NCBI RefSeq assembly: GCF_023667495.1
Contig: NZ_JAMOZL010000001.1
Span: 434,001-498,000, forward strand
Direction: 5' to 3'
DNA: 64,000 bases
Origin: Dyadobacter sp. MSC1_007
Lineage (GTDB): Bacteria; Bacteroidota; Bacteroidia; Cytophagales; Spirosomataceae
A model generated the notes under the pieces. The model saw only the letters and a list, made by a program, of their open reading frames with translations, was not told the origin of the DNA and ran no database searches. Position numbers and translations under genes: made by a program. Below are positions 37,968-49,282 of this stretch, piece by piece. Position 1 is the stretch's first letter. Each line of letters opens with the position of its first letter.

Positions 37968-38429
37968 ATGGCAAACATTAAAGCAGTAACTGTCCTCTAT
38001 GTGGACGACGAGGTTCATAATCTGAATTCATTCAAAGCCACTTTCCGAAAATAATTTAATGTGTTGACTGCCCGTTCCGCTGTCGAAGGTCTCGAAATAT
38101 TGAGTAAAAATGATGTACACATTGTGATCACCGACCTGCGTATGCCCGAGGTGACTGGTGTTGAGTTTTTGTCAGAGATTTTGGAACGATATCCCAATGT
38201 GCTGAGAGTGCTGCTAACTGGTTTTATGGAGCTAACTGTTATTGCGGAAGCATTAAGCAAAGGGCAGGTTCATTACAGAATGGAAAAGCCGTGGGATGAA
38301 GAACAGATTCGGGTAATTATCAATGCTGCTTATGAAATTGCACAGCTTCGGAAAGCCGGAGGAAAAGAGCAGGATCTTGATGTGGCAAGCGAGCTGGATT
38401 TTATTTTAAGGCAGAACCTCCTGTCCTAG
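37968..38429 (+). pseudogene. response regulator interrupted by an in-frame TAA
   Basis: One frame runs from the ATG at 37968 through 38429 with a single TAA at 38052-38054. Before it the sequence reads LYVDDEVHNLNSFKATFRK; after it FNVLTARSAVEGLEILSK, ITDLRMPEVTG (phospho-site aspartate), LLTGF and EKPWDEEQ. These pieces are exactly the continuous receiver found in intact relatives, where a Glu or Asp usually sits at the stop position, so GAA to TAA is the simplest event. The acidic pocket and the phospho-site are now separated, so the product should be inactive unless the stop is read through. Confidence 0.8.
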
Positions 38430-38451
38430 AAAAAGTTTCTTCTTAAAAAAA

Positions 38452-38483
38452 TTTGCGTTTTAAAATTCAATAAGCTTACTTTG
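38452..38483 (+). promoter_or_regulatory. Bacteroidota-type promoter of the leader-susCD-sulfatase operon
   Basis: A TTTG -33 element (38452-38455) is followed after 20 bp by TTACTTTG (38476-38483), one mismatch from the TAnnTTTG -7 consensus. Spacing matches the family. Transcription would start near 38490, about 80 nt before the leader ORF. Confidence 0.55.
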
Positions 38484-38571
38484 TCTATCATATTTATAGA
38501 CTAATATAAAATGACGCTATCCGATTAACCACCAGTCGGGCAGGCATTCATTCAAATTTCTTATCGTACCT

Positions 38572-38673
38572 ATGAAAGCGAAAGATTTACTTCTTATCCA
38601 AAGCCACAGCATTGGCAGGAGGGTGGTCACTCATTATTCCCGTATTGCAGCCATGTGCTGTCCCCGTTGTTGA
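38572..38673 (+). CDS. 33-residue leader peptide with Cys-rich C-terminus
   Basis: A short ORF (ATG at 38572, TGA at 38671-38673) located between the operon promoter and susC. It starts MKAKDLLLIQSHSIGRR, continues VVTHYSRIAA and ends MCCPRC before the stop. Three cysteines within the last five codons, placed immediately before the stop, recall the cysteine-rich leader peptides that attenuate sulfur genes in other bacteria: ribosomes slow on Cys codons when cysteine is scarce and the downstream RNA fold changes. The operon encodes three sulfatases, which supply sulfate, so a cysteine-sensing role fits. The 170-nt stretch between the leader and susC shows no obvious strong terminator hairpin by eye, so the mechanism is unproven. 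Confidence 0.6.
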   Translation: MKAKDLLLIQSHSIGRRVVTHYSRIAAMCCPRC

Positions 38674-38843
38674 CCGAAAGGTTTTTCAGTCCGTATTCCA
38701 GGAGCTGTCGCTCAGATCATTAAGGCCGTAGCGCCTGAATGAGACGCGCTTGTACACGTGGTTTCTTTTTGCAAAGGCCGCTCGTCGTATAGGCGTGATG
38801 GTTACCTCTTTTTGCCCGAATCACCCATTTTATACCACCAAAA

Positions 38844-41800
38844 ATGATCAAGAAAATTTTTGGCCTGCTCTTGTTAGCAGGCGCATTGCTCACGACTGCG
38901 GTTCGTGTAGCGGCCCAGGATGTGATATCCGGCGTCGTAAAAGACGAATCAGGCCAGACGCTCCCCGGCGCCACTGTTGTAGAAAAAGGGTCTGCGAAAT
39001 ACGCATTGACCGACATCGACGGCAAGTTCAGCATTCCTGCCGCAAAAGAATTTCCATTTACACTGCAAATCAGCATTACCGGTTTCCAGCAACAGGAGAT
39101 CGAAATTTATGAACAACCGGTTGAGACTGTGGATATTGTGTTGAAAACAGCCAATGTCCTCGACGAAGTGGTCGTCATCGGTTATGGTGAACAAAAGCGC
39201 AAGGACATTACCGGTTCGGTAGCGTCAGTGCCTATTGAGATTAAAAGCCAGCCGGTTGCCTCCGTGGAACGATTGCTACAAGGCTCGGTGGCCGGTGCTG
39301 TCGTAACGCAGACGTCCGGCCAGCCAGGCGGAGGAGTGAGCGTACAGATACGCGGGAATAACTCCATTACCGCAGGCAGCGACCCATTGTACGTAATCGA
39401 CGGTTTTCCTATCAATAACGATTACAGCCTGACCGACGCCGGGGTAACCGACGGCTCGAAAATTAACCCGCTATCTTCCATTAATACTGCTGATATTGAG
39501 AATATCGATGTATTGAAAGACGCTTCTGCTACCGCAATTTACGGTTCGAGAGGGGCCAACGGGGTCGTTATCATCACCACAAAAACCGGCGCCAAAAATA
39601 AGTCTTCCATTAATTATGACGCCTATTACGGCTCGCAAAAAGTGCTTCGTACCATTCCACTTCTCAATGCCGGGCAATGGTGGCAATTAAGGAAGGATGC
39701 GGCTGCCAACTCTGGAAAAGTAGCTTCGATTCCGAGTGTGAGCGGTTATTCGCTGGACACCACCGGCGCGGGCACCGACTGGCAGGATGCGGCTTTCCGC
39801 AGTGCTTCCATTCAAAGTCATAACCTTTCAATCCTTTCGGGTTCGGACAAAACAAGGCTTGCGATTTCAGGTAACTATTTCAAACAGAATGGGATATTGC
39901 AAAATACGGATTTCAGAAGGTTGTCGACGAGGGTAAATCTCGACCATCAGTATAACGACCGTTTCCGGATCATCGCGAGCCTTTCGGCCAGCAATACCAA
40001 GGCCAATGTGGCACCGACGGCCATCGTAGGCAACTTGTTGCTGACACCTCCGGCATTGCCGATCTATCAGAACGACGGTTCATTTGTGATTAACAGCCCC
40101 TTTGAATCAGCATTACAGAACCCGATCAATTCACTTTACAACCAGCTCAACGAAACGATTACGAATCGTTTTTTGGGTAATATTTCCGGAGAATATACCA
40201 TTCTGGATGGCTTGAAGGCGAAGGTATTGATTGGCGCAGACGTTGTTGGGAATAAGCAAAACAGGTATCTTCCCAGCACCACAGCGGAAGGCCAGGCATT
40301 GAGCGGAGATGCTATCGTAGGTTCTGTTTTTACGAGTAACTGGCTGAATGAGAACACGATCAGTTACGACAAAGAGATCAACGAAAAGAATAAGATCAGT
40401 GCAGTAGCTGGTTTCACAGCCCAGGTTTCCGAAACAAAGGGTGCCGTGGCGGAAGCGGCCGGATTTGCGACCGATGCATTTGGATACAATAACCTGGCAA
40501 CCGGTATCACGAGCATCGCGCCGCGCTCGCTGGCCAGCAAATGGGCACTGGCATCGTACCTGGGCCGTATCAACTACATTTTTGATGAACGTTACCTATT
40601 TACATTCACCGTGCGTGCCGATGGTTCGTCGCGGTTCGGTAGCGGCAACAAATGGGGCTATTTCCCTTCGGCAGCATTCGGTTGGAATATCAATGAAGAG
40701 AAATTCTTTCAGCGGTTCAAAAAAGTAAGTCTGCTCAAACTGCGGTTGAGCGCCGGTACAACGGGTAACCAAAACATTCCCTCTTACCAATCCCTGTCGC
40801 AGCTGAGTTATTTCCGGTACAATTTCTCGAATACGACTGTTTCAGGTTACGCGCCGAATACGGTGCCAAATCCGGACCTCGGTTGGGAAAAAACCTCGCA
40901 GGTGGACGTCGGTGTCGATCTTGGCTTGTACAAAAACCGTATTAATATCATCGCCGATTATTATTACAAAAAAACCACTGATCTATTACTTACACGCACT
41001 GTACCAGGCACTTCGGGCCTTTCCGATTTCTACAATGGACAGGCGTCGGTGGTGTACCAGAATATCGGGTCGGTTTCTAACCAGGGTTTTGAGTTGTATG
41101 TCAATTCAAGAAATTTGGAAGGCGCATTTAAATGGAACACGATTTTCATTTATTCTAAAAACACCAATAAAATCCTCAGTCTGGGCGACGGTGTGAACCA
41201 GATCATTCCTTTGATATCCGCTCCTTCGATCGCGAAAGTAGGCTATCCGCTGGGTTCATTTATTGTGTACCAAACTGATGGCATTATCCAGCAGGGCGAA
41301 AATCCTTTGACGCCTCAACAAAACAAGAGCCCCGGCGGACAGAAATACAAGGACATCAATGGCGACGGCGTGATTACCCAGGCGGGCGACCGTGTGGTGA
41401 TCAAAAACCAACCCGGATTCACCGCAGGATTGACCAACACATTCAATTACAAAGGGTTTGACCTTACGGTTTTCTTCCAGGCATCGATTGGTGGCAAACT
41501 ATATAATGCAAACCGCGCGAACCTCGAACTGGGTACAGGCTATGTCAACGGTTCGGATGTGCTGCTCAACCGGTGGACGCCGACAAACACGAATACCGAC
41601 GTGAAAGCTGCATATCAGGATCCCGCGATCACGATTTCGGACCGGTTTATTGAAGACGCGACCTACTACCGTCTGAAAAACCTGTCGTTTGGCTACACAT
41701 TCCCGAAAGAGCTGTTATCCCGGATCCGGATCGAAAACCTGCGTCTCTACGTGTCGGCCCAAAACCCTGTCACCTGGACCAAATACACCGGATTTGACCC

Positions 41801-41903
41801 TGAAGTCAGCTTGAACGGACAATCGCTGATCAACAAGGGTGTAGACCAGGGCGTGTATCCGAACAACAAATCCTACCAGGTGGGATTATCCTTAACATTC
41901 TGA
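38844..41903 (+). CDS. SusC/RagA-family TonB-linked outer-membrane transporter
   Basis: A 1019-residue transporter. Signal peptide (1-24, RVAAQ), then a CarboxypepD-regulatory-like domain (about 26-105, ISGVVKDESGQTLPGATV), the TonB-box region VLDEVVVIGYGEQKR (about 106-120), a plug domain with VQIRGNN and LYVIDGFPINN, and a 22-strand barrel to the C-terminus (SLTF). SusC-type channels take up oligosaccharides or glycopeptides together with the SusD lid encoded next. No TonB-dependent anti-sigma signalling domain is present. It is the first large gene of the operon that ends with three sulfatases, which points to a sulfated glycan as the substrate. Confidence 0.95.
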   Translation: MIKKIFGLLLLAGALLTTAVRVAAQDVISGVVKDESGQTLPGATVVEKGSAKYALTDIDGKFSIPAAKEFPFTLQISITGFQQQEIEIYEQPVETVDIVLKTANVLDEVVVIGYGEQKRKDITGSVASVPIEIKSQPVASVERLLQGSVAGAVVTQTSGQPGGGVSVQIRGNNSITAGSDPLYVIDGFPINNDYSLTDAGVTDGSKINPLSSINTADIENIDVLKDASATAIYGSRGANGVVIITTKTGAKNKSSINYDAYYGSQKVLRTIPLLNAGQWWQLRKDAAANSGKVASIPSVSGYSLDTTGAGTDWQDAAFRSASIQSHNLSILSGSDKTRLAISGNYFKQNGILQNTDFRRLSTRVNLDHQYNDRFRIIASLSASNTKANVAPTAIVGNLLLTPPALPIYQNDGSFVINSPFESALQNPINSLYNQLNETITNRFLGNISGEYTILDGLKAKVLIGADVVGNKQNRYLPSTTAEGQALSGDAIVGSVFTSNWLNENTISYDKEINEKNKISAVAGFTAQVSETKGAVAEAAGFATDAFGYNNLATGITSIAPRSLASKWALASYLGRINYIFDERYLFTFTVRADGSSRFGSGNKWGYFPSAAFGWNINEEKFFQRFKKVSLLKLRLSAGTTGNQNIPSYQSLSQLSYFRYNFSNTTVSGYAPNTVPNPDLGWEKTSQVDVGVDLGLYKNRINIIADYYYKKTTDLLLTRTVPGTSGLSDFYNGQASVVYQNIGSVSNQGFELYVNSRNLEGAFKWNTIFIYSKNTNKILSLGDGVNQIIPLISAPSIAKVGYPLGSFIVYQTDGIIQQGENPLTPQQNKSPGGQKYKDINGDGVITQAGDRVVIKNQPGFTAGLTNTFNYKGFDLTVFFQASIGGKLYNANRANLELGTGYVNGSDVLLNRWTPTNTNTDVKAAYQDPAITISDRFIEDATYYRLKNLSFGYTFPKELLSRIRIENLRLYVSAQNPVTWTKYTGFDPEVSLNGQSLINKGVDQGVYPNNKSYQVGLSLTF

Positions 41904-41931
41904 TCAAGTGCACATTAATATCCTTTTGAAA

Positions 41932-43500
41932 ATGAAAGCATTCAAATATATACTATTAGGGTTCACCGCATTTGCGTCGTTGTCGTGCGAAGAATTCCTT
42001 AAAGAAGAACCGGAAGCGTTCTTGTCGGAAGACCAGTATTACAAAACACAGGCCGATGCTATTAATGCAGTCAATGCAGTGTATTTCTTTCTGAATTCAG
42101 GCGGATCGTCGGTTCAGACACCATACAACACCTTATTCAATACAGGTATGAATATGGCGAGCGATGACGAAGATCCGGGACCGGGCGCTACCAACCCCGA
42201 TGTGCGTTCATTGTCCGTACAAGCGCATTCGTCGACCAACCTCCGTATTTATGAATTGTGGCAGCAGCATTATGCAGCGATCAAAAAGGCCAATGTGGTG
42301 CTGGAAAAGATTCCTGCGATCGATTTTGATAATGCATTGAAAGCCAGATTGCTGGGCGAGACCAAATTTCTTCGTGCATTGTATTATTTCAACCTCGTAC
42401 GCTTGTATGGCGACATTCCGTTGATCCTGGAATATCAGAAATTTGTGAATGCGTCGGATTACGCGATTGCCAAATCATCTTCGGCAGATATTTATAAACA
42501 AATTGAAAAGGACCTTAATGAGGCCGCAGCAGTGCTTCCGGCAAGCTACGGATCGCCCGATGTGGGACGTGCGACCGCCGGTGCTGCCAAGGCGCTACTT
42601 GCGAAAGTCTACCTTGCCGAGGCGTCGCTGCCACTAAAAGTAAGTGCGCGTTATCAGGACGCGGTAACCAAAGCAGAGGAGGCATTGTCGTCCGCAGACG
42701 GGGGCAAAGGAACCTATGGCTACGACCTTGTAAGCAATTATGGAGAGGTGTTTCTGCCTGCATTCAAGAACAATAAAGAACACATTTTTTCCGCTCAGTT
42801 TAAGTCTAACTCGCTTGCGCAGGGGAATAATGAAAACCCTCGTGCTATTCTCTCGGGTATTCCCGGATTGAGCGGAAACTATGCCCATATGGTGCGGTAT
42901 TATACAGAAGGAAACGATAAGTTTTTTAGTATTTACAAACTGTTTAAACCGGGCGATAAGCGTCGTGATGTGACGTTTGTCAGGAACTTCACGAGTCCGA
43001 CCAATGGCAAGAAATATGGATTAAGCATTGCCAATGCAGCTTATCCGAACGATTCGACGCCTTTTTGGCATAAATACTGGGACCCTAATTCCACTGCCGT
43101 TACCAACCAATCGGCGGCCAATGTGCCTATTATCCGTTATGCTGAGCTGCTACTGATCCATGCCGAAGCGGAAAATGAAGCGAATGGTCCAACAGTAAAA
43201 GCTTACAAATCATTGAACAAGGTCCGCACACGGGCAGGCTTGCCTAACCTCACTGCCGGCCTTTCCAAAGACCAGTTCCGCGACTCAGTTTACCTGGATC
43301 GCCGGCTCGAACTCACTTACGAATACCAGCGCTGGTTTGATCTGATCCGTCAGCGGGATGCGGCTTACAACGGGACATTCGTGAAAAACCTGCATAAGGT
43401 TGGTAAGACCAATGCGGCTCCGAAACACGCCTTTTACCCAATTCCGCAGTCGGAAATCGACAATAATGCACTGTTGAAACAGAACCCGTTGTGGGAGTAA
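41932..43500 (+). CDS. SusD/RagB-family outer-membrane lipoprotein
   Basis: A 522-residue substrate-binding lipoprotein. Start at 41932 (MKAFKYILL) with lipobox SLSC (C19); a GTG at 41908 would add eight residues before the signal and is less likely. The SusD_RagB helical repeats fill the rest (LLGETKFLRALYYFNLVRLY; later RYAELLLIHAEAENEANG and the C-terminal RRLELTYEYQRWFDLIRQ). It caps the SusC transporter at the cell surface and binds the incoming glycan. It lies 28 bp after susC and 8 bp before the first sulfatase gene. Confidence 0.93.
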   Translation: MKAFKYILLGFTAFASLSCEEFLKEEPEAFLSEDQYYKTQADAINAVNAVYFFLNSGGSSVQTPYNTLFNTGMNMASDDEDPGPGATNPDVRSLSVQAHSSTNLRIYELWQQHYAAIKKANVVLEKIPAIDFDNALKARLLGETKFLRALYYFNLVRLYGDIPLILEYQKFVNASDYAIAKSSSADIYKQIEKDLNEAAAVLPASYGSPDVGRATAGAAKALLAKVYLAEASLPLKVSARYQDAVTKAEEALSSADGGKGTYGYDLVSNYGEVFLPAFKNNKEHIFSAQFKSNSLAQGNNENPRAILSGIPGLSGNYAHMVRYYTEGNDKFFSIYKLFKPGDKRRDVTFVRNFTSPTNGKKYGLSIANAAYPNDSTPFWHKYWDPNSTAVTNQSAANVPIIRYAELLLIHAEAENEANGPTVKAYKSLNKVRTRAGLPNLTAGLSKDQFRDSVYLDRRLELTYEYQRWFDLIRQRDAAYNGTFVKNLHKVGKTNAAPKHAFYPIPQSEIDNNALLKQNPLWE

Positions 43501-43508
43501 GACGGAAC

Positions 43509-45098
43509 ATGAACCGGAAGCTCACAGGTTTAGTGTTGCTGATTTGTTTCGGATCCGGTTTTGGGCAATCGCTACCGATGGCTCAAAACCGATCCGAAAA
43601 GCCGGATATTATCCTGATCCTGGCCGATGATATGGGTTTTTCTGATCTTGGAAGTTTCGGATCTGAAATCCATACGCCGAATCTGGACAGGCTTGCCAGG
43701 GAAGGATTGCGGCTTACACAGTTTTACAATAGCGGTCGGTGCTGTCCTTCGCGGGCGTCCCTGCTCACGGGTCTGTACCCGCATCAGGCGGGCGTGGGCG
43801 ACATGGTGCAGGACAAGGGAACGCCTGCCTATCAGGGCTATTTGAGCCAAAATAGTGTAACAATTGCCGAATTATTGAAAACAGCCGATTATAACACCAT
43901 TGTTTCGGGTAAATGGCATGTCGGACTTGTGCCGTCGGCGTTGGCGCATAACCGTGGGTTCGATCAATCGTTCACCCTGCAAAACAATGGCAGCAGCTAT
44001 TTCAATTCAGAACCGCTTTACAATGATGGTCGCACTGTTACATTCCTTTTGAATGGGAAGCCGATACAAAGAAGCGATACATCGAAATACCTGACGCAAG
44101 CGATCACAGATTTCGCAATCCAATCGCTCGATAAGATCAAAGACCAGCGCGACCCGTTCTTCCTGTATCTAGCCTATAATGCACCGCATTGGCCTATTCA
44201 GGCATTGCCGGAAGATATTGCAAAGTACAAGGGCCGGTATTTGAAAGGTTGGGATGAAGCGCGTAAGGCCAGGTTTGAAAAGCTTGTTTCTGAGGGTATT
44301 ATTCCAAAAAACGCAAAGCTGTCGCCTCGCTACGACAAAGTGCCTGAATGGAATGCATTGTCCGAGCGTGAAAAGGCTGAGCAGGACCTCCGCATGGCAA
44401 TTTACGCCGCGATGATCGACCGAATGGACCAATGCATTGGCGAAGTGCTCGTCAAGCTCAAAGCCATCGGCCGCGACAGGAACACACTCATTCTTTTCAT
44501 GTCCGACAACGGGGGCAGCGGTGATACAGTGAAGGAATGGAGTTATGTGACTCAAAAATCAGGCACGCCTGGTTCGGTGGCATCCATTGATAGTTACGAT
44601 CCGCCGTGGGGCAATGTCAGCAATACGCCTTTTAAACTCTTCAAGAAAAACACCCATGAGGGCGGCGTGGCATCCCCGTTTATCGCTTGGTTTCCCGGAA
44701 AGATTAAGGCCGGTTCGATTAGCCATCAGGTCGCGCATTTGACAGACATCATGCCGACGCTGCTGGAATTGGCTGGTGTTAATTATCCTAAAAATTTTAA
44801 GGATCGCGAGCTCGTCCCCGCTGCGGGAACCTCATTAACACCTCTCTTCAATCATCCCGAAAAAATAGTTGACAAAACGGTTTTCTGGGAGCACGAAGGA
44901 AGCAGGGCGATGCGTAAGCAGGACTGGAAGCTGGTCGCTGAAATCGGCCAACCCTGGGAGCTGTACAACCTGAAAAGCGACCGCACCGAAACCAAAGATC
45001 TTGCCAAAACCTACCCTGCAAAAGTGAAGGAACTGGAAGCAGAATACCTTCAATGGGCTGCCAAAGTAGGTGTAGTGGATTGGAATACAATTAAATAA
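43509..45098 (+). CDS. arylsulfatase-type sulfatase (1 of 3)
   Basis: A 529-residue secreted sulfatase (signal peptide 1-20, GSGFGQ). Start at 43509; a GTG at 43491 overlaps susD and is not needed. The formylglycine motif is C78-C-P-S-R82 followed by LLTG, so C78 would be oxidised by a maturase. Metal ligands include ADD (39-41) and DNGG (about 334-337); the substrate-side K of GKWH is at about residue 136. Family S1 sulfatases cleave sulfate esters from glycans. It follows susD by 8 bp. Confidence 0.93.
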   Translation: MNRKLTGLVLLICFGSGFGQSLPMAQNRSEKPDIILILADDMGFSDLGSFGSEIHTPNLDRLAREGLRLTQFYNSGRCCPSRASLLTGLYPHQAGVGDMVQDKGTPAYQGYLSQNSVTIAELLKTADYNTIVSGKWHVGLVPSALAHNRGFDQSFTLQNNGSSYFNSEPLYNDGRTVTFLLNGKPIQRSDTSKYLTQAITDFAIQSLDKIKDQRDPFFLYLAYNAPHWPIQALPEDIAKYKGRYLKGWDEARKARFEKLVSEGIIPKNAKLSPRYDKVPEWNALSEREKAEQDLRMAIYAAMIDRMDQCIGEVLVKLKAIGRDRNTLILFMSDNGGSGDTVKEWSYVTQKSGTPGSVASIDSYDPPWGNVSNTPFKLFKKNTHEGGVASPFIAWFPGKIKAGSISHQVAHLTDIMPTLLELAGVNYPKNFKDRELVPAAGTSLTPLFNHPEKIVDKTVFWEHEGSRAMRKQDWKLVAEIGQPWELYNLKSDRTETKDLAKTYPAKVKELEAEYLQWAAKVGVVDWNTIK

Positions 45099-45129
45099 TA
45101 TTGGTTAATTAATTTAAAACTAATAAGTT

Positions 45130-47439
45130 ATGAAAGGAATGTATCACAACATAACCCGTTTATCTATCGGGGCATTGGCTATCGCGGCCAGCACTGGACT
45201 GTACGCCCAGCATGCACCAACGGCTGCTTATACCGGTAAAATTGGCAAAACTGTTGCCGAAACGCAGCAATCCTGGCCCGAAAAAAAGAAAGCCAAAGGC
45301 GCGCTGAACGTAGTCTGGATTTTGCTGGACGACATTGGCTATGGGGCTGTCAGCACCTTTGGCGGGCTCATTAATACACCTACATTGGATAGTCTAGCTA
45401 ATAATGGATTGAGATACACCAACTTTCACACCACAGCCATTTGTGCACCAACCCGTGCGTCACTGCTCACGGGGCGCAACCAGCATTCGGCTCATATGGG
45501 TCTTTTTCCGGAAACTGCCATTGGCACGCCGGGTTACGACGCCATCATGCCTTTCGAAAAAGCAACTATTGCTGAGATCCTGAAAGATAACGGTTATAAC
45601 ACCTTTGCATTAGGTAAATGGCACATTACGCCGCTCGCGGACCTCACGCCTGCCGGGCCATTCAACCGTTGGCCGACTGGTCGCGGGTTTGAGCAATTTT
45701 ATGGCTTCCCATCCCGCGGCAGCATCGACCAGTGGCATCCCGAACTTTGGGAAGGTACCCACCGCGAGGCCGACCGTCAGGACGGCAAACATTTCAATGA
45801 GTTGCTGGCCAATAGGGCGATCAGCTACTTGTCGGGACAGAAATCGGGTAATCCTGAAAAGCCATTTTTCCTATACATCGCTACCGGGGCAGGGCATGCT
45901 CCCCATCAGGTAGCGAAACAATGGTCGGACAAGTACAAAGGCAAGTTTGACGCTGGGTGGGACGCCTATCGCGAACAAGTACTGGCTAATCAGATCAAAC
46001 TGGGCGTGGTTCCGAAGAATACCAAACTTCCTCCCAGGAACCCGGGTGTGAAGGACTGGAATACCCTTTCCGCAGATGAAAAGAAGCTGTATGCGCGCTT
46101 TATGGAAACCTATGCGGGCTTTTTGGAATATACCGATTACGAAATTGGCCATGTGATCAACCATATCCGCGATTCGGGCGAGTTGGATAACACGCTGGTA
46201 ATCGTTTCCGTGGGAGACAATGGGGCTAGTAAGGAAGGGACTTTTGTAGGGACCGTCAATAATTTCGGAGCCGACCTTCCGGAAGAGCAACGGTTGAAGA
46301 AAAACCTGGAACAGATCGATCTCATCGGTACCGAGTTTTCGAAAGTGAATTATCCGCTTGGATGGGCCGCAGCCACCAATGTGCCTTTCAGACAATGGAA
46401 GCAGGATGCCAATGCAGAAGGCGGTACACACAATCCGCTGATCGTTTTTTATCCAAAAGGCATTAAAGAAAAAGGCGGTATCCGTAACCAATACGGCCAT
46501 GTTTCCGACATTTTACCTACTACCCTCGAACTCCTGAATGTGAAAGCACCCGCCGTGGTGAACGGCATTAAGCAGGATCCGATTGAGGGCACCAGCCTGG
46601 CTTACAGCCTGAATGACGCTAATGCGAAAAGCAGGCATACGGTCCAGTATTATGAGATTAAAGGTTCGAGATCGATTTACAAGGATGGATGGAAGGCTGG
46701 CGCACTGCATGTACGCGGACAGGATTTCGAAAAGGACAAATGGGAGCTTTATAATGTCAATGAAGATTTCAACGAAACGAACGATCTCGCGGCATCGCAA
46801 CCTGCCAAATTGAAAGAATTGAAAGCTTTATTTGACAGCGAGGCCGTGAAATACAATGTGTACCCGCTTAAAGACGGCACAGAGCCATTTACTCTTCCGA
46901 CTGCTTACAACGATGTAGATAAGGTGGTTCTTTATCCGGGACAATCGACGATCATCGATATAGCGAGTCCATTTGCATTGAAACGCTCATTTTCCATTGT
47001 GGCCGATGTAGAGGTGGCTGGCGTTGAAACTGAGGGCGTTCTGTTGTCGAGGGGCGGGAGTGTGGGAGGTTTGAGTTTTTTTATTCAAAACCATAAACTG
47101 CAATTTGTATATGCGGTAGGCGACGGGACTAAATATGCCGTTAGTTCTAACCAAACGACATTGCCGTCTGGGAAAGTCGAGCTGAAAGCAAGTGTGCAAT
47201 ATGAGCAGAATGGTGCCGGGCTGATTACGCTTTATGCCAATAATTCCAAAATTGGTGAAGGGCCTATTGCGAAAACTTCGGATGCGCTGTATCTGCATGA
47301 GGGTGTCAATGTGGGATTCGACGACCTGACACCGGTAGGGGATACCTATAAAGTGCCTTTTGCATTTACCGGCAAGATCAACAAGGTTACCATTGACCTT
47401 GTACCCGCGCAACAGGCGCACTTGAGCGGCTCGAAATGA
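45130..47439 (+). CDS. arylsulfatase with C-terminal beta-sandwich (2 of 3)
   Basis: A 769-residue secreted sulfatase (signal peptide to about 26, LYAQ). Metal-binding LLDD is at 65-68 and the formylglycine motif C105-A-P-T-R109 is followed by LLTG; GKWHI lies near 163. DNGAS near 363-367 completes the metal site. The last 170 residues form a beta-sandwich typical of the long arylsulfatases (IIDIASPFALKRSFSIVADV). Size and layout resemble the S1_4-type enzymes. It is 31 bp after the first sulfatase gene. Confidence 0.92.
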   Translation: MKGMYHNITRLSIGALAIAASTGLYAQHAPTAAYTGKIGKTVAETQQSWPEKKKAKGALNVVWILLDDIGYGAVSTFGGLINTPTLDSLANNGLRYTNFHTTAICAPTRASLLTGRNQHSAHMGLFPETAIGTPGYDAIMPFEKATIAEILKDNGYNTFALGKWHITPLADLTPAGPFNRWPTGRGFEQFYGFPSRGSIDQWHPELWEGTHREADRQDGKHFNELLANRAISYLSGQKSGNPEKPFFLYIATGAGHAPHQVAKQWSDKYKGKFDAGWDAYREQVLANQIKLGVVPKNTKLPPRNPGVKDWNTLSADEKKLYARFMETYAGFLEYTDYEIGHVINHIRDSGELDNTLVIVSVGDNGASKEGTFVGTVNNFGADLPEEQRLKKNLEQIDLIGTEFSKVNYPLGWAAATNVPFRQWKQDANAEGGTHNPLIVFYPKGIKEKGGIRNQYGHVSDILPTTLELLNVKAPAVVNGIKQDPIEGTSLAYSLNDANAKSRHTVQYYEIKGSRSIYKDGWKAGALHVRGQDFEKDKWELYNVNEDFNETNDLAASQPAKLKELKALFDSEAVKYNVYPLKDGTEPFTLPTAYNDVDKVVLYPGQSTIIDIASPFALKRSFSIVADVEVAGVETEGVLLSRGGSVGGLSFFIQNHKLQFVYAVGDGTKYAVSSNQTTLPSGKVELKASVQYEQNGAGLITLYANNSKIGEGPIAKTSDALYLHEGVNVGFDDLTPVGDTYKVPFAFTGKINKVTIDLVPAQQAHLSGSK

Positions 47440-47458
47440 TTATCATATTAGAACGATA

Positions 47459-49282
47459 ATGAAAACAAATCTCCGGCTGAGAATCATGCTTTTGATGCTA
47501 CTGACCTGCGCGTTAACCAACGCGCAGGATCGGCCCAACATTCTCTGGATTGTGAGCGAAGATAATACGACGCTCCTCGGCAGCTATGGCGACAAGTTTG
47601 CTACTACGCCTAACCTCGACCGTTTTGCTACCGAAAGTATACGCTACAAGAATGCATTCTCGACCGCTCCCGTGTGCGCGCCCTCGCGTAATACGCTCAT
47701 TACGGGCATGTACCCGCCCTCGCTTGGGACCGAGCACATGCGTAGCGTGTATCCTTCGCCGGATTTTGTTAAATTTTTTCCGAAATATTTGAGGGAAGTA
47801 GGTTACTACACCACCAACAATGCCAAAAAGGACTATAATACAACTGACCAAACGGACGCCTGGGATGAGTCGAGCAACACGGCGACCTATAAAAACCGGA
47901 AAGCGGGGCAGCCGTTTTTTGCGGTTTTTAATCTGAATGTTTCGCACGAAAGTTCGCTGCACGAGCCGGTGGCTACCCTACATCACGATCCTGAAAAGGT
48001 GCCGTTACCGCCATACCATCCCGCAACGCCCGAGCTCAAACACGATTGGGCTCAGTATTACGACAAGTTGGAAGAAATGGATCGGCAGTTTGGCAAGCTG
48101 CTCAAAGAGTTGCAGGACGAAGGGTTGGCCGAAAACACGATCGTATTTTACTATGCCGATAATGGCGGTGTATTGGCGCGTAGCAAGCGGTTTATGTACG
48201 AATCCGGGCTGCATGTGCCATTAATCATTCATTTGCCGCCGAAATATGCGCACCTGGCGAAGCAACCGCTGGGCAGCGTTTCCGACAGGCTTGTCACATT
48301 TCTGGATTTCGCTCCTACCGTGTTGAGTCTGGTTGATATCAAAGTGCCCGATTACATGCAGGGAGCCGCGTTTTTGGGCAAGCAGCAGAAGCCTGAGGCA
48401 CAATATGCCTATGGTTTTCGTGGCCGGATGGACGAACGGATCGACATGTCGCGCTCGGTGCGGGACAAGCGGTTTCGTTATATCCGCAATTATCTGCCGA
48501 ACAAAATTTATGGTCAGTATCTCGAATATCTTTGGCGTGCACCTTCGGTAAAATCCTGGGAAGACGCCTATAAATCGGGTAAGTTGAATGCGATCCAGTC
48601 GAAATTCTGGGAGCCGAAACCTGCGGAAGAACTATTTGACATCGAGGCCGATCCGCATAATATCCACAACTTAGCTGGTGATCCGCAATACAAAAGTGTG
48701 TTGGAAAGGTTAAGAAAGGCGAATGACCAATGGTTAAGAAGTTACAAAGACGTCGGTTTTATTCCCGAAGCCATTTTATATGAAATCTCCAAGACAACAC
48801 CGCTTTATGATTATGCCAGAAGCGGGAAATATGACCTTGAAAAGGTCATCAAGACAGCCGATATGGCTTCGTCGCGAAACGCCGTACACACCGAAAAACT
48901 CATCGAGGGGCTCGCCGACAAGGATCCAATTATACGCTATTGGTCGGCCACGGGGCTGACAATCCTCAATGTCGTTTCGGGCAAAGAGGCATTGCAAAAA
49001 GCACTTAAAGATCCCGAACCAGCCGTGCGCATCGCAGCCGCGGAGGCACTTTACGTTACGAGAGCAGACAAACAAGCAGCAATCATCACATTGACCAACG
49101 CATTAAAGACTGACAACCCCTACGCCCGTTTGCAAGCACTCAATATCCTCGAACTGGCAGGCAAAGACGCCAAACCAGCCCTGCCCGAGGCTGAGCGCAT
49201 TGCCGGGCAAAAGGCTGACATGTTCGACTACGACATTCGCGCCGCCAAGGTGCTGGTGGAACGGTATGGCGGGCAGAAATAA
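47459..49282 (+). CDS. N-sulfoglucosamine sulfohydrolase-like sulfatase with HEAT-like tail (3 of 3)
   Basis: A 607-residue secreted sulfatase (signal peptide 1-22, LTNAQ). The early metal ligands read SEDN (33-36) and the formylglycine motif C73-A-P-S-R77 is followed by NTLITG. These features and DNGG near 236 place it close to the heparan N-sulfatase (sulfamidase) type. Residues about 475-600 form two to three HEAT-like helical repeats (IRYWSATGLTIL; VRIAAAEALYV), which may bind partner proteins. It is the last gene of the susCD operon, 19 bp after the second sulfatase. Confidence 0.9.
   Translation: MKTNLRLRIMLLMLLTCALTNAQDRPNILWIVSEDNTTLLGSYGDKFATTPNLDRFATESIRYKNAFSTAPVCAPSRNTLITGMYPPSLGTEHMRSVYPSPDFVKFFPKYLREVGYYTTNNAKKDYNTTDQTDAWDESSNTATYKNRKAGQPFFAVFNLNVSHESSLHEPVATLHHDPEKVPLPPYHPATPELKHDWAQYYDKLEEMDRQFGKLLKELQDEGLAENTIVFYYADNGGVLARSKRFMYESGLHVPLIIHLPPKYAHLAKQPLGSVSDRLVTFLDFAPTVLSLVDIKVPDYMQGAAFLGKQQKPEAQYAYGFRGRMDERIDMSRSVRDKRFRYIRNYLPNKIYGQYLEYLWRAPSVKSWEDAYKSGKLNAIQSKFWEPKPAEELFDIEADPHNIHNLAGDPQYKSVLERLRKANDQWLRSYKDVGFIPEAILYEISKTTPLYDYARSGKYDLEKVIKTADMASSRNAVHTEKLIEGLADKDPIIRYWSATGLTILNVVSGKEALQKALKDPEPAVRIAAAEALYVTRADKQAAIITLTNALKTDNPYARLQALNILELAGKDAKPALPEAERIAGQKADMFDYDIRAAKVLVERYGGQK

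Follow-up and report, generated by a model that had tools for sequence, protein, structure and literature searches.

Why would an operon for a SusCD uptake system and several sulfatases be preceded by a short reading frame that ends in cysteine codons? SusCD operons are usually read as carbon-scavenging units tied to glycan sensors. The case at hand lies in a stretch of 64,000 nucleotides from Dyadobacter sp. MSC1_007 (contig NZ_JAMOZL010000001.1, positions 434,001 to 498,000 of the forward strand), referred to in its entirety as the window. On its plus strand, an upstream open reading frame (uORF) of 33 codons occupies positions 38572-38673, running from ATG to TGA and ending in MCCPRC; a gap of 170 nt separates it from the ATG of susC at 38844. 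A first-pass annotation had marked this arrangement as a possible cysteine-sensing leader peptide, and the lengths that it gave for the ORF and the gap are borne out; the Cys-ended ORF ahead of the SusCD-sulfatase operon is a confirmed observation. We infer with a probability of roughly 0.7 that the uORF is the cysteine-sensing leader peptide of a sulfur-scavenging regulon and works through the ribosome. That inference takes in the translation of the uORF, the stalling, the sign of the response, the output step and the role of a dyad as an operator.

The tail of the uORF reads TGC TGT CCC CGT TGT TGA (38656-38673, plus strand; letters and codon table), with Cys codons at positions 29, 30 and 33, and therefore only Cys33 adjoins the stop. 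The earlier description of three Cys codons right before the stop thus holds in that all three fall within the last six codons, and fails in that a single one touches the stop. Counting both strands, the window contains 617 ATG-initiated short ORFs of 15-60 amino acids, 14 of which have at least two Cys in their last six residues; the one at 38572-38673 is the sole member of the 617 with three. Of 200 dinucleotide shuffles of the window leader, 0.5% contained a Cys-ended uORF. The 33-residue peptide matches no family in either the NCBIfam or the Pfam library of hidden Markov models, and the Rfam 15 covariance models give no match in 38400-38900 at E values up to 1. Within the same genome, the coding-sequence pattern of the tail was found at 25 places with up to three mismatches, versus 13 for the control, and a relative was recognised only at the window's own copy.

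Upstream of the uORF, the plus strand carries a promoter of the Bacteroidota type at 38452-38483, consisting of TTTG (38452-38455), a 20-nt spacer and TTACTTTG (38476-38483). It is identified from the letters, from an alignment of leaders and from the published -7 box of the phylum, TAnnTTTG at -12 to -5 (PMC9723704), from which TTACTTTG differs at one position. This box is unchanged across 13 aligned leaders, and the upstream TTG is unreadable in one truncated row. A scan for E. coli-type (sigma-70) promoters returned nothing on the plus strand of the window leader; the promoter-like pair proposed in the first-pass annotation is of the Bacteroidota type. The boxes place the predicted start of transcription at about 38488, some 84 nt ahead of the uORF ATG and within a dyad, GTCTAT-N7-ATAGAC (38483-38501, not assigned to a strand). 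The dyad, recognised from the leader alignment and a pattern search through the genus, is a candidate operator; it is identical in 12 of 13 leaders and has one change in the other (L124; L numbers are our own locus labels).

The uORF is conserved among close relatives. A single-sequence search of 99 genomes (the own genome included) yielded, on inspection, seven homologs of the uORF, all in Dyadobacter (E 3.7e-4 to 0.48), and a scan of named genomes found eight uORF loci, again all in this genus. With a profile search, an alignable uORF was recovered from 13 of 48 Dyadobacter genomes; none of the 13 exceeds E 1.6e-9, and the next match follows at 0.002. All 12 relatives with an alignable uORF have susC, susD and sulfatase genes downstream that are orthologous to those of the window (susD 88-90% identical); the first sulfatase has no ortholog in L121, and in L127 susC and the second sulfatase are each split over several ORFs. 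Cys29, Cys30 and Cys33 are unchanged in the alignment of eight homologs. Counted back from the stop in all 13 uORFs, the Cys codons at -4 and -1 are constant. At -2, 12 have Cys, the exception being the window with Arg; at -5, 11 have Cys, and the other two have Ser or Ala (one each). The 13 uORFs range from 33 to 53 codons, and their two conserved ends stay in one frame across a variable middle. When a profile of eight uORFs was run against 394 other genomes of the class, weak matches appeared in 43 (best E 0.0022), and none of the 19 places examined out of 45 had the architecture of the window.

Conservation extends to leaders that can no longer be aligned. Orthologs of susD (at least 73% identity) occur at 35 places in 34 genomes of the genus, and the stretch upstream of susC was inspected at the 22 places without an alignable uORF (20 plus a further 2). 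Six of the 20 (L130, L133, L144, L145, L146, L148) and both of the others (L163, L164) have a uORF that has diverged but still shows clustered Cys codons close to its stop; L132 has a degenerate leader with no recognisable Cys uORF. At the remaining 13 places the dyad lies ahead of an upstream gene of about 355 codons rather than ahead of susC, and those members of this gene that were tested match fatty-acid hydroxylase. Before the hydroxylase gene, eight of these 13 have another, different uORF whose Cys codons come near the stop (L151, L152, L154, L155, L158, L160, L161, L162), four have CC nine to ten codons ahead of the stop (L153, L156, L157, L159), and L150 has no clear Cys uORF. The diverged uORFs keep little beyond the Cys tail.

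Searches that start from the dyad reveal the same association in other operons. The pattern ACTTTGTCTAT-N7-ATAGAC, with at most one mismatch, has 106 matches over the 48 genomes of the genus (37 with a match), versus four for the reversed pattern. The loci fetched, which cover part of the genus matches, contain 93 distinct dyad sites (at most two mismatches), which clustering reduced to 61 representatives. A Cys-ended uORF, defined as an ATG-initiated frame 15-60 codons long whose last six codons include two or more for Cys, is present in 29 of the 61 leaders, versus 1.04 expected from dinucleotide shuffles (never more than 8 in 100,000 simulations) and one on the reverse strand. Because part of the set had entered through uORF or susD homology, it was split by origin: the frequency is 14/16 among homology-derived leaders and 15/45 among leaders found by the dyad only, versus 0.79 expected for the latter and, again, one on the reverse strand. 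A definition by position alone gives uORFs at 36 sites; in these, Cys accounts for 77 of the 216 residues at the last six positions versus 26 of 950 elsewhere (Fisher test), and it is the only residue enriched at the ends. Ser, Arg and Pro show no trend, and Leu is lower. The earlier suggestion that the Cys codons are kept in relatives is therefore upheld by orthologous leaders, by diverged leaders of the same operon and by the other uORFs behind the promoter-dyad, and similar small ORFs, which the annotation proposed to look for, stand ahead of other sulfur-related operons in the genus.

Beyond the genus the signal fades. The exact dyad pattern has no match in the 394 other genomes of the class (control, one). 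With one mismatch, 121 genomes of the family give a weak signal outside the genus, with 23 matches in 18 genomes versus 12 for the control. Among the 19 of these 23 that were examined, L248 and L252 have the motif CCACC (see below) and a uORF with a Cys cluster, and two, in two other genera, lie directly ahead of an O-acetylhomoserine/O-acetylserine (OAH/OAS) sulfhydrylase gene (TIGR01326 above cut-off), at distances of 16 and 29 nt; most of the others look like chance.

Among the genes behind the dyad sites are those for sulfatases, fatty-acid hydroxylases and TonB receptors, for a rhodanese-thioredoxin fusion and for an extracytoplasmic function (ECF) sigma factor, besides some whose products match no family. 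In one case (L222:222-315, plus strand), an S-adenosylmethionine (SAM) riboswitch, RF00162, lies directly behind the dyad promoter (48.2 bits; gathering threshold 44.4) and precedes a redoxin gene and then a cysteine-desulfurase-like gene (a fragment whose best model is NifS, below the curated cut-off). By eye, an own-genome site with three mismatches (L270) begins with the same letters as this riboswitch. With at most two mismatches the own genome has five sites, three of them with a Cys uORF: the window itself, L263 (a 321-residue protein without a family; uORF ending SGSCCRY) and L265 (a fatty-acid hydroxylase; uORF ending SLGCC); the two sites without one, L264 and L266 (the site of L165), precede sulfatases. 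The link to sulfur drawn in the first-pass annotation is thus supported by the sulfatases, the rhodanese-thioredoxin, the SAM-riboswitch operon and the OAH/OAS sulfhydrylases, and the picture of the regulon is one of organic-sulfur scavenging more than of sulfate assimilation. At the level of sequence, the anatomy of the leader, the conservation of its Cys codons and their recurrence over operons rich in sulfur genes can be taken as established. The fatty-acid hydroxylase genes (PF04116) are regular members of the dyad regulon (L204, L164, L265 and similar loci), and a role for them in sulfur supply is not obvious; in L163 and L164 the hydroxylase gene lies ahead of a sulfatase gene.

Two complementary motifs recur in these leaders. 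The window has a small hairpin of 7 bp (G-U pairs allowed) at 38520-38540 on the plus strand, found by a stem search over the representative leaders, with the loop AACCACC and CCACC at 38529-38533. Inside the uORF, two Val codons form GGTGGT (38622-38627, plus strand), which is complementary to ACCACC at 38528-38533 and again at 38834-38839, 4 nt ahead of the susC start. In 46 of the 61 representative leaders CCACC lies no more than 50 nt from the dyad, and it is frequently the loop of a short hairpin that holds it. The mean length of the best stem at these sites is 6.8 bp versus 5.3 in shuffled flanks, many single sites being no better than the shuffles. GGTGG falls within 19 of the 29 uORFs, versus 1.57 expected by codon shuffling, and in 14 of those 19 it lies 34-40 nt ahead of the first Cys codon of the tail. 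CCACC and the Cys uORF go together: 28 of 46 sites with CCACC have a Cys uORF versus one of 15 sites without it (Fisher p 2.4e-4), and the corresponding figures for the dyad-only set are 15/31 and 0/14.

How might such a leader work? The promoter with its overlapping dyad operator, common to the regulon, would start the transcript. When Cys-tRNA is plentiful, ribosomes would quickly complete the uORF and leave, and the untranslated stretch ahead of susC would lower expression by way of Rho or of leader structure. When Cys-tRNA is scarce, a ribosome would stall at the terminal Cys codons and alter or protect the leader, and the SusCD-sulfatase operon would be expressed, freeing sulfate from sulfated substrates. 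The sensing of Cys-tRNA by codons is the simplest reading, because the tails (CCSCC, CCCC, CCQACISC, SCCRY, LGCC and DCCSM are examples) differ in nearly everything but Cys codons near the stop. The sign of the response, with low Cys-tRNA raising expression, is suggested by the logic of scavenging and by the mycobacterial precedent. Rho-dependent termination is a possible output step; it has been proposed, in excerpts of PMC1262725, for actinobacterial cys leaders without terminators. Three of the features expected of a leader-peptide attenuator are present, in that a short ORF lies between the promoter and the regulated gene, carries a conserved cluster of Cys codons, and precedes sulfatases and other sulfur genes, which concern sulfate supply and not cysteine synthesis itself.

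Several results weigh against a cysteine-sensing leader peptide. The untranslated leader of 170 nt between uORF and susC (38674-38843, plus strand) contains local hairpins, which recur among single folds of the leaders, and neither a U-run terminator nor any other intrinsic terminator was found by the terminator scan of the plus strand of the window leader. The leader folds no better than its shuffles (z 0.08), and the RNAalifold consensus of 13 leaders has almost no covariation, with four of 60 pairs changed on both sides. Folding of the leader, a check that the first-pass annotation had proposed for the gap, gave no clear attenuator. Nested pairing of CCACC with GGTGG reaches a probability of at least 0.5 in only 3/17 full leaders (5/17 when truncated). 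For GGTGG and the region of the susC start, which such pairing would mask, nested folding gives 0.09 at most. Co-variation of the two motifs is not visible, and in L160 GGTGG is lost and CCACC kept. Because nested folding is inconsistent and loop-loop contacts (kissing loops) lie outside the reach of that model, a CCACC:GGTGG pairing is put forward as a hypothesis. Furthermore, the window tail is the Cys-poorest of the orthologs (of five positions, one is Arg and one Pro), and neither the dyad nor a Cys uORF was found in the cysH-cysD region of the own genome. A Cys-ended uORF by the above definition is missing from 30 of the 45 leaders found by the dyad only, and the dyad therefore acts without the uORF in many operons. 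Finally, dyad matches in the own genome at three mismatches (22) fall below the control (36), and therefore reliance was placed only on the five own-genome sites that have two mismatches or fewer, a level for which there is no control.

Other explanations of the Cys-rich end have to be weighed against the same data. It might act as a peptide: by binding a metal, or by sensing redox state or sulfide, the nascent chain could arrest the ribosome, or a microprotein could act in trans. Ortholog ends such as CCSCC or CCPCC would make a plausible metal-binding end, and an N-terminal MKAKD block is conserved; still, the tails of the regulon share hardly anything beyond Cys codons close to the stop. 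A role of the codons accounts for that better than a single peptide structure does, and this explanation appears improbable. The conserved tail could also be an RNA or DNA element at the nucleotide level (GTTGTTG), its open frame being incidental, as the near invariance of TGTTGTTGA in the 13 orthologs and the conservation of the N-terminal block in nucleotides as well might suggest. Yet the diverged tails use both TGC (18) and TGT (62) and have other codons within the run without losing the frame, and the conserved ends share one frame across middles that differ by 3 to 60 nt, all of which makes a nucleotide element very unlikely. The Cys codon counts of these tails can be set beside those of the long ORFs of the window (TGT 30, TGC 61), a comparison across species and indicative only.

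The dyad itself raises a different alternative, in which sulfur control is exerted by the dyad and its regulator, and the uORF contributes little or nothing to regulation. The dyad hardly varies, stands ahead of sulfatases that have no Cys uORF (L264, L266), and precedes the OAH/OAS sulfhydrylase genes by so little (16 and 29 nt). The strong over-representation of Cys-ended uORFs behind the dyad would then go unexplained, however, as would the retention of their Cys codons despite heavy divergence, and we consider this account unlikely. That the frame is spurious and its Cys codons due to chance might be entertained from the window alone, short ORFs being as common there as the count of 617 indicates; conservation and recurrence in the comparative data exclude it for practical purposes.

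A leader peptide that senses cysteine would fit into a wider arrangement, which we favour by a narrow measure: a two-layer sulfur-scavenging regulon in Dyadobacter and some relatives. In the first layer, a shared operator-promoter would serve sulfatase, SusCD/TonB and hydroxylase operons; in the second, a common Cys-tRNA-reading 5' leader would consist of the hairpin with the ACCACC loop and the Cys-codon uORF with its internal GGUGG. Some operons would instead, or additionally, carry a long hairpin RNA with the loop GGUGG, and SusCD uptake would be switched by sulfur need.

The long hairpin is possibly a new cis-regulatory RNA. It is stable, has an invariant apical CGGTGGTTG, and follows the dyad promoter in the leaders of operons for sulfatases and hydroxylases, with loci at L264:1545-1745 (plus strand), L223:2285-2485 (minus strand), L153, L156, L157, L160, L161, L163, L164, L170, L186, L192, L211, L217, L244, L251, L252 and L265. 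In many leaders it lies between the uORF and the hydroxylase gene, and in L223 and L264 it precedes sulfatases that have neither CCACC nor a Cys uORF. It is absent from the window's own leader. Among the loci fetched, TTTTCGGTGGTTG (one mismatch) occurs at 32 places, 21 of them after a dyad; the other 11 are not, and seem unrelated. An alignment of 18 long hairpins has 25 predicted pairs, 16 of which show pair-keeping changes on both sides. Of the long-hairpin loci, 11 were scanned with Rfam, with no match above gathering threshold.

Polycysteine uORFs in mycobacteria were reportedly described by Canestrari et al. in 2020. Excerpts of PMC13236596 and PMC1262725, the latter predicting Cys leaders ahead of actinobacterial cys operons, describe elements that resemble the one in the window: a short uORF, a run of Cys codons near its stop, sulfur genes downstream and no obvious terminator. 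According to the same excerpts, those uORFs are leaderless, belong to Actinobacteria and stand ahead of cys biosynthesis operons, whereas the window uORF begins about 84 nt after the predicted transcription start (which points against leaderless translation), belongs to Bacteroidota and stands ahead of SusCD-sulfatase and other scavenging operons; its kind of leader also has the shared dyad, the CCACC hairpin and the internal GGTGG. A uORF of Rhodobacterales cysS, uORFC-8-2, likewise has tandem Cys codons and is read as ribosome-mediated attenuation in excerpts of PMC8632094, where its two tandem codons are at 14-15, an intrinsic terminator is present and cysS is the sole target; in the window leader, by contrast, Cys lies near the stop, no terminator was found on the plus strand, and susC and scavenging operons are downstream. 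Clues for leader-peptide attenuation ahead of metabolic operons come from the same phylum, in Flavobacterium psychrophilum; the operons concerned are for amino-acid biosynthesis, and the attenuation section mentions neither cysteine nor sulfur (PMC9723704). The SAM riboswitch RF00162 differs again, being a metabolite-binding RNA without a leader peptide; it stands behind the same type of dyad-promoter in L222 and not in the window leader.

The Cys-codon leader is thus of a known kind, and its setting and the shared leader look new. Among the matches listed from the open PubMed Central (PMC) literature, there was neither a cysteine leader peptide on sulfatase or SusCD operons nor a paper on the regulation of Dyadobacter sulfatases, and a description of such an RNA device for Bacteroidota was found nowhere in the literature searched. 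The leaders of this genus suggest that the cell might use its cysteine supply as the cue for gathering sulfur. If so, part of the SusCD/sulfatase repertoire would serve sulfur supply, and the interpretation of SusCD/sulfatase clusters in soil and plant-associated Bacteroidota would change. Cysteine-codon control would also be added to a phylum that, in excerpts of PMC9723704, initiates translation largely without Shine-Dalgarno sequences. The 29 of 61 representative sites with a Cys-ended uORF provide a ready-made set of leaders for testing.

The operon downstream of the leader is entirely on the plus strand. It begins with susC, a TonB-linked outer membrane receptor (38844-41903; TIGR04056 above cut-off, Pfam Plug and CarbopepD_reg_2), and susD (41908-43500; PF07980, PF14322). 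Three sulfatases (PF00884) follow, at 43491-45098, 45130-47439 and 47459-49282, the third with HEAT repeats (PF13646). All three match C-x-[P/A]-x-R, which we take to be the sulfatase active site, in the form C-x-P-x-R at residues 84, 105 and 73, respectively. The proteins of the operon (38844-49282) are very poor in Cys, with eight among the 3460 residues of the five proteins and none in SusC.

Upstream of the promoter, positions 37968-38429 (plus strand) read by eye like a response-regulator receiver domain with an in-frame stop. Where the window has this interrupted gene, 10 of 12 relatives have an intact ORF of about 560-600 codons on the same strand. Elsewhere in the own genome (L239, C1:343000-358000), a sulfhydrylase-like gene and cysH are separated by two small ORFs (114 and 152 codons), the second of which looks, by eye, like a PIN-type toxin.
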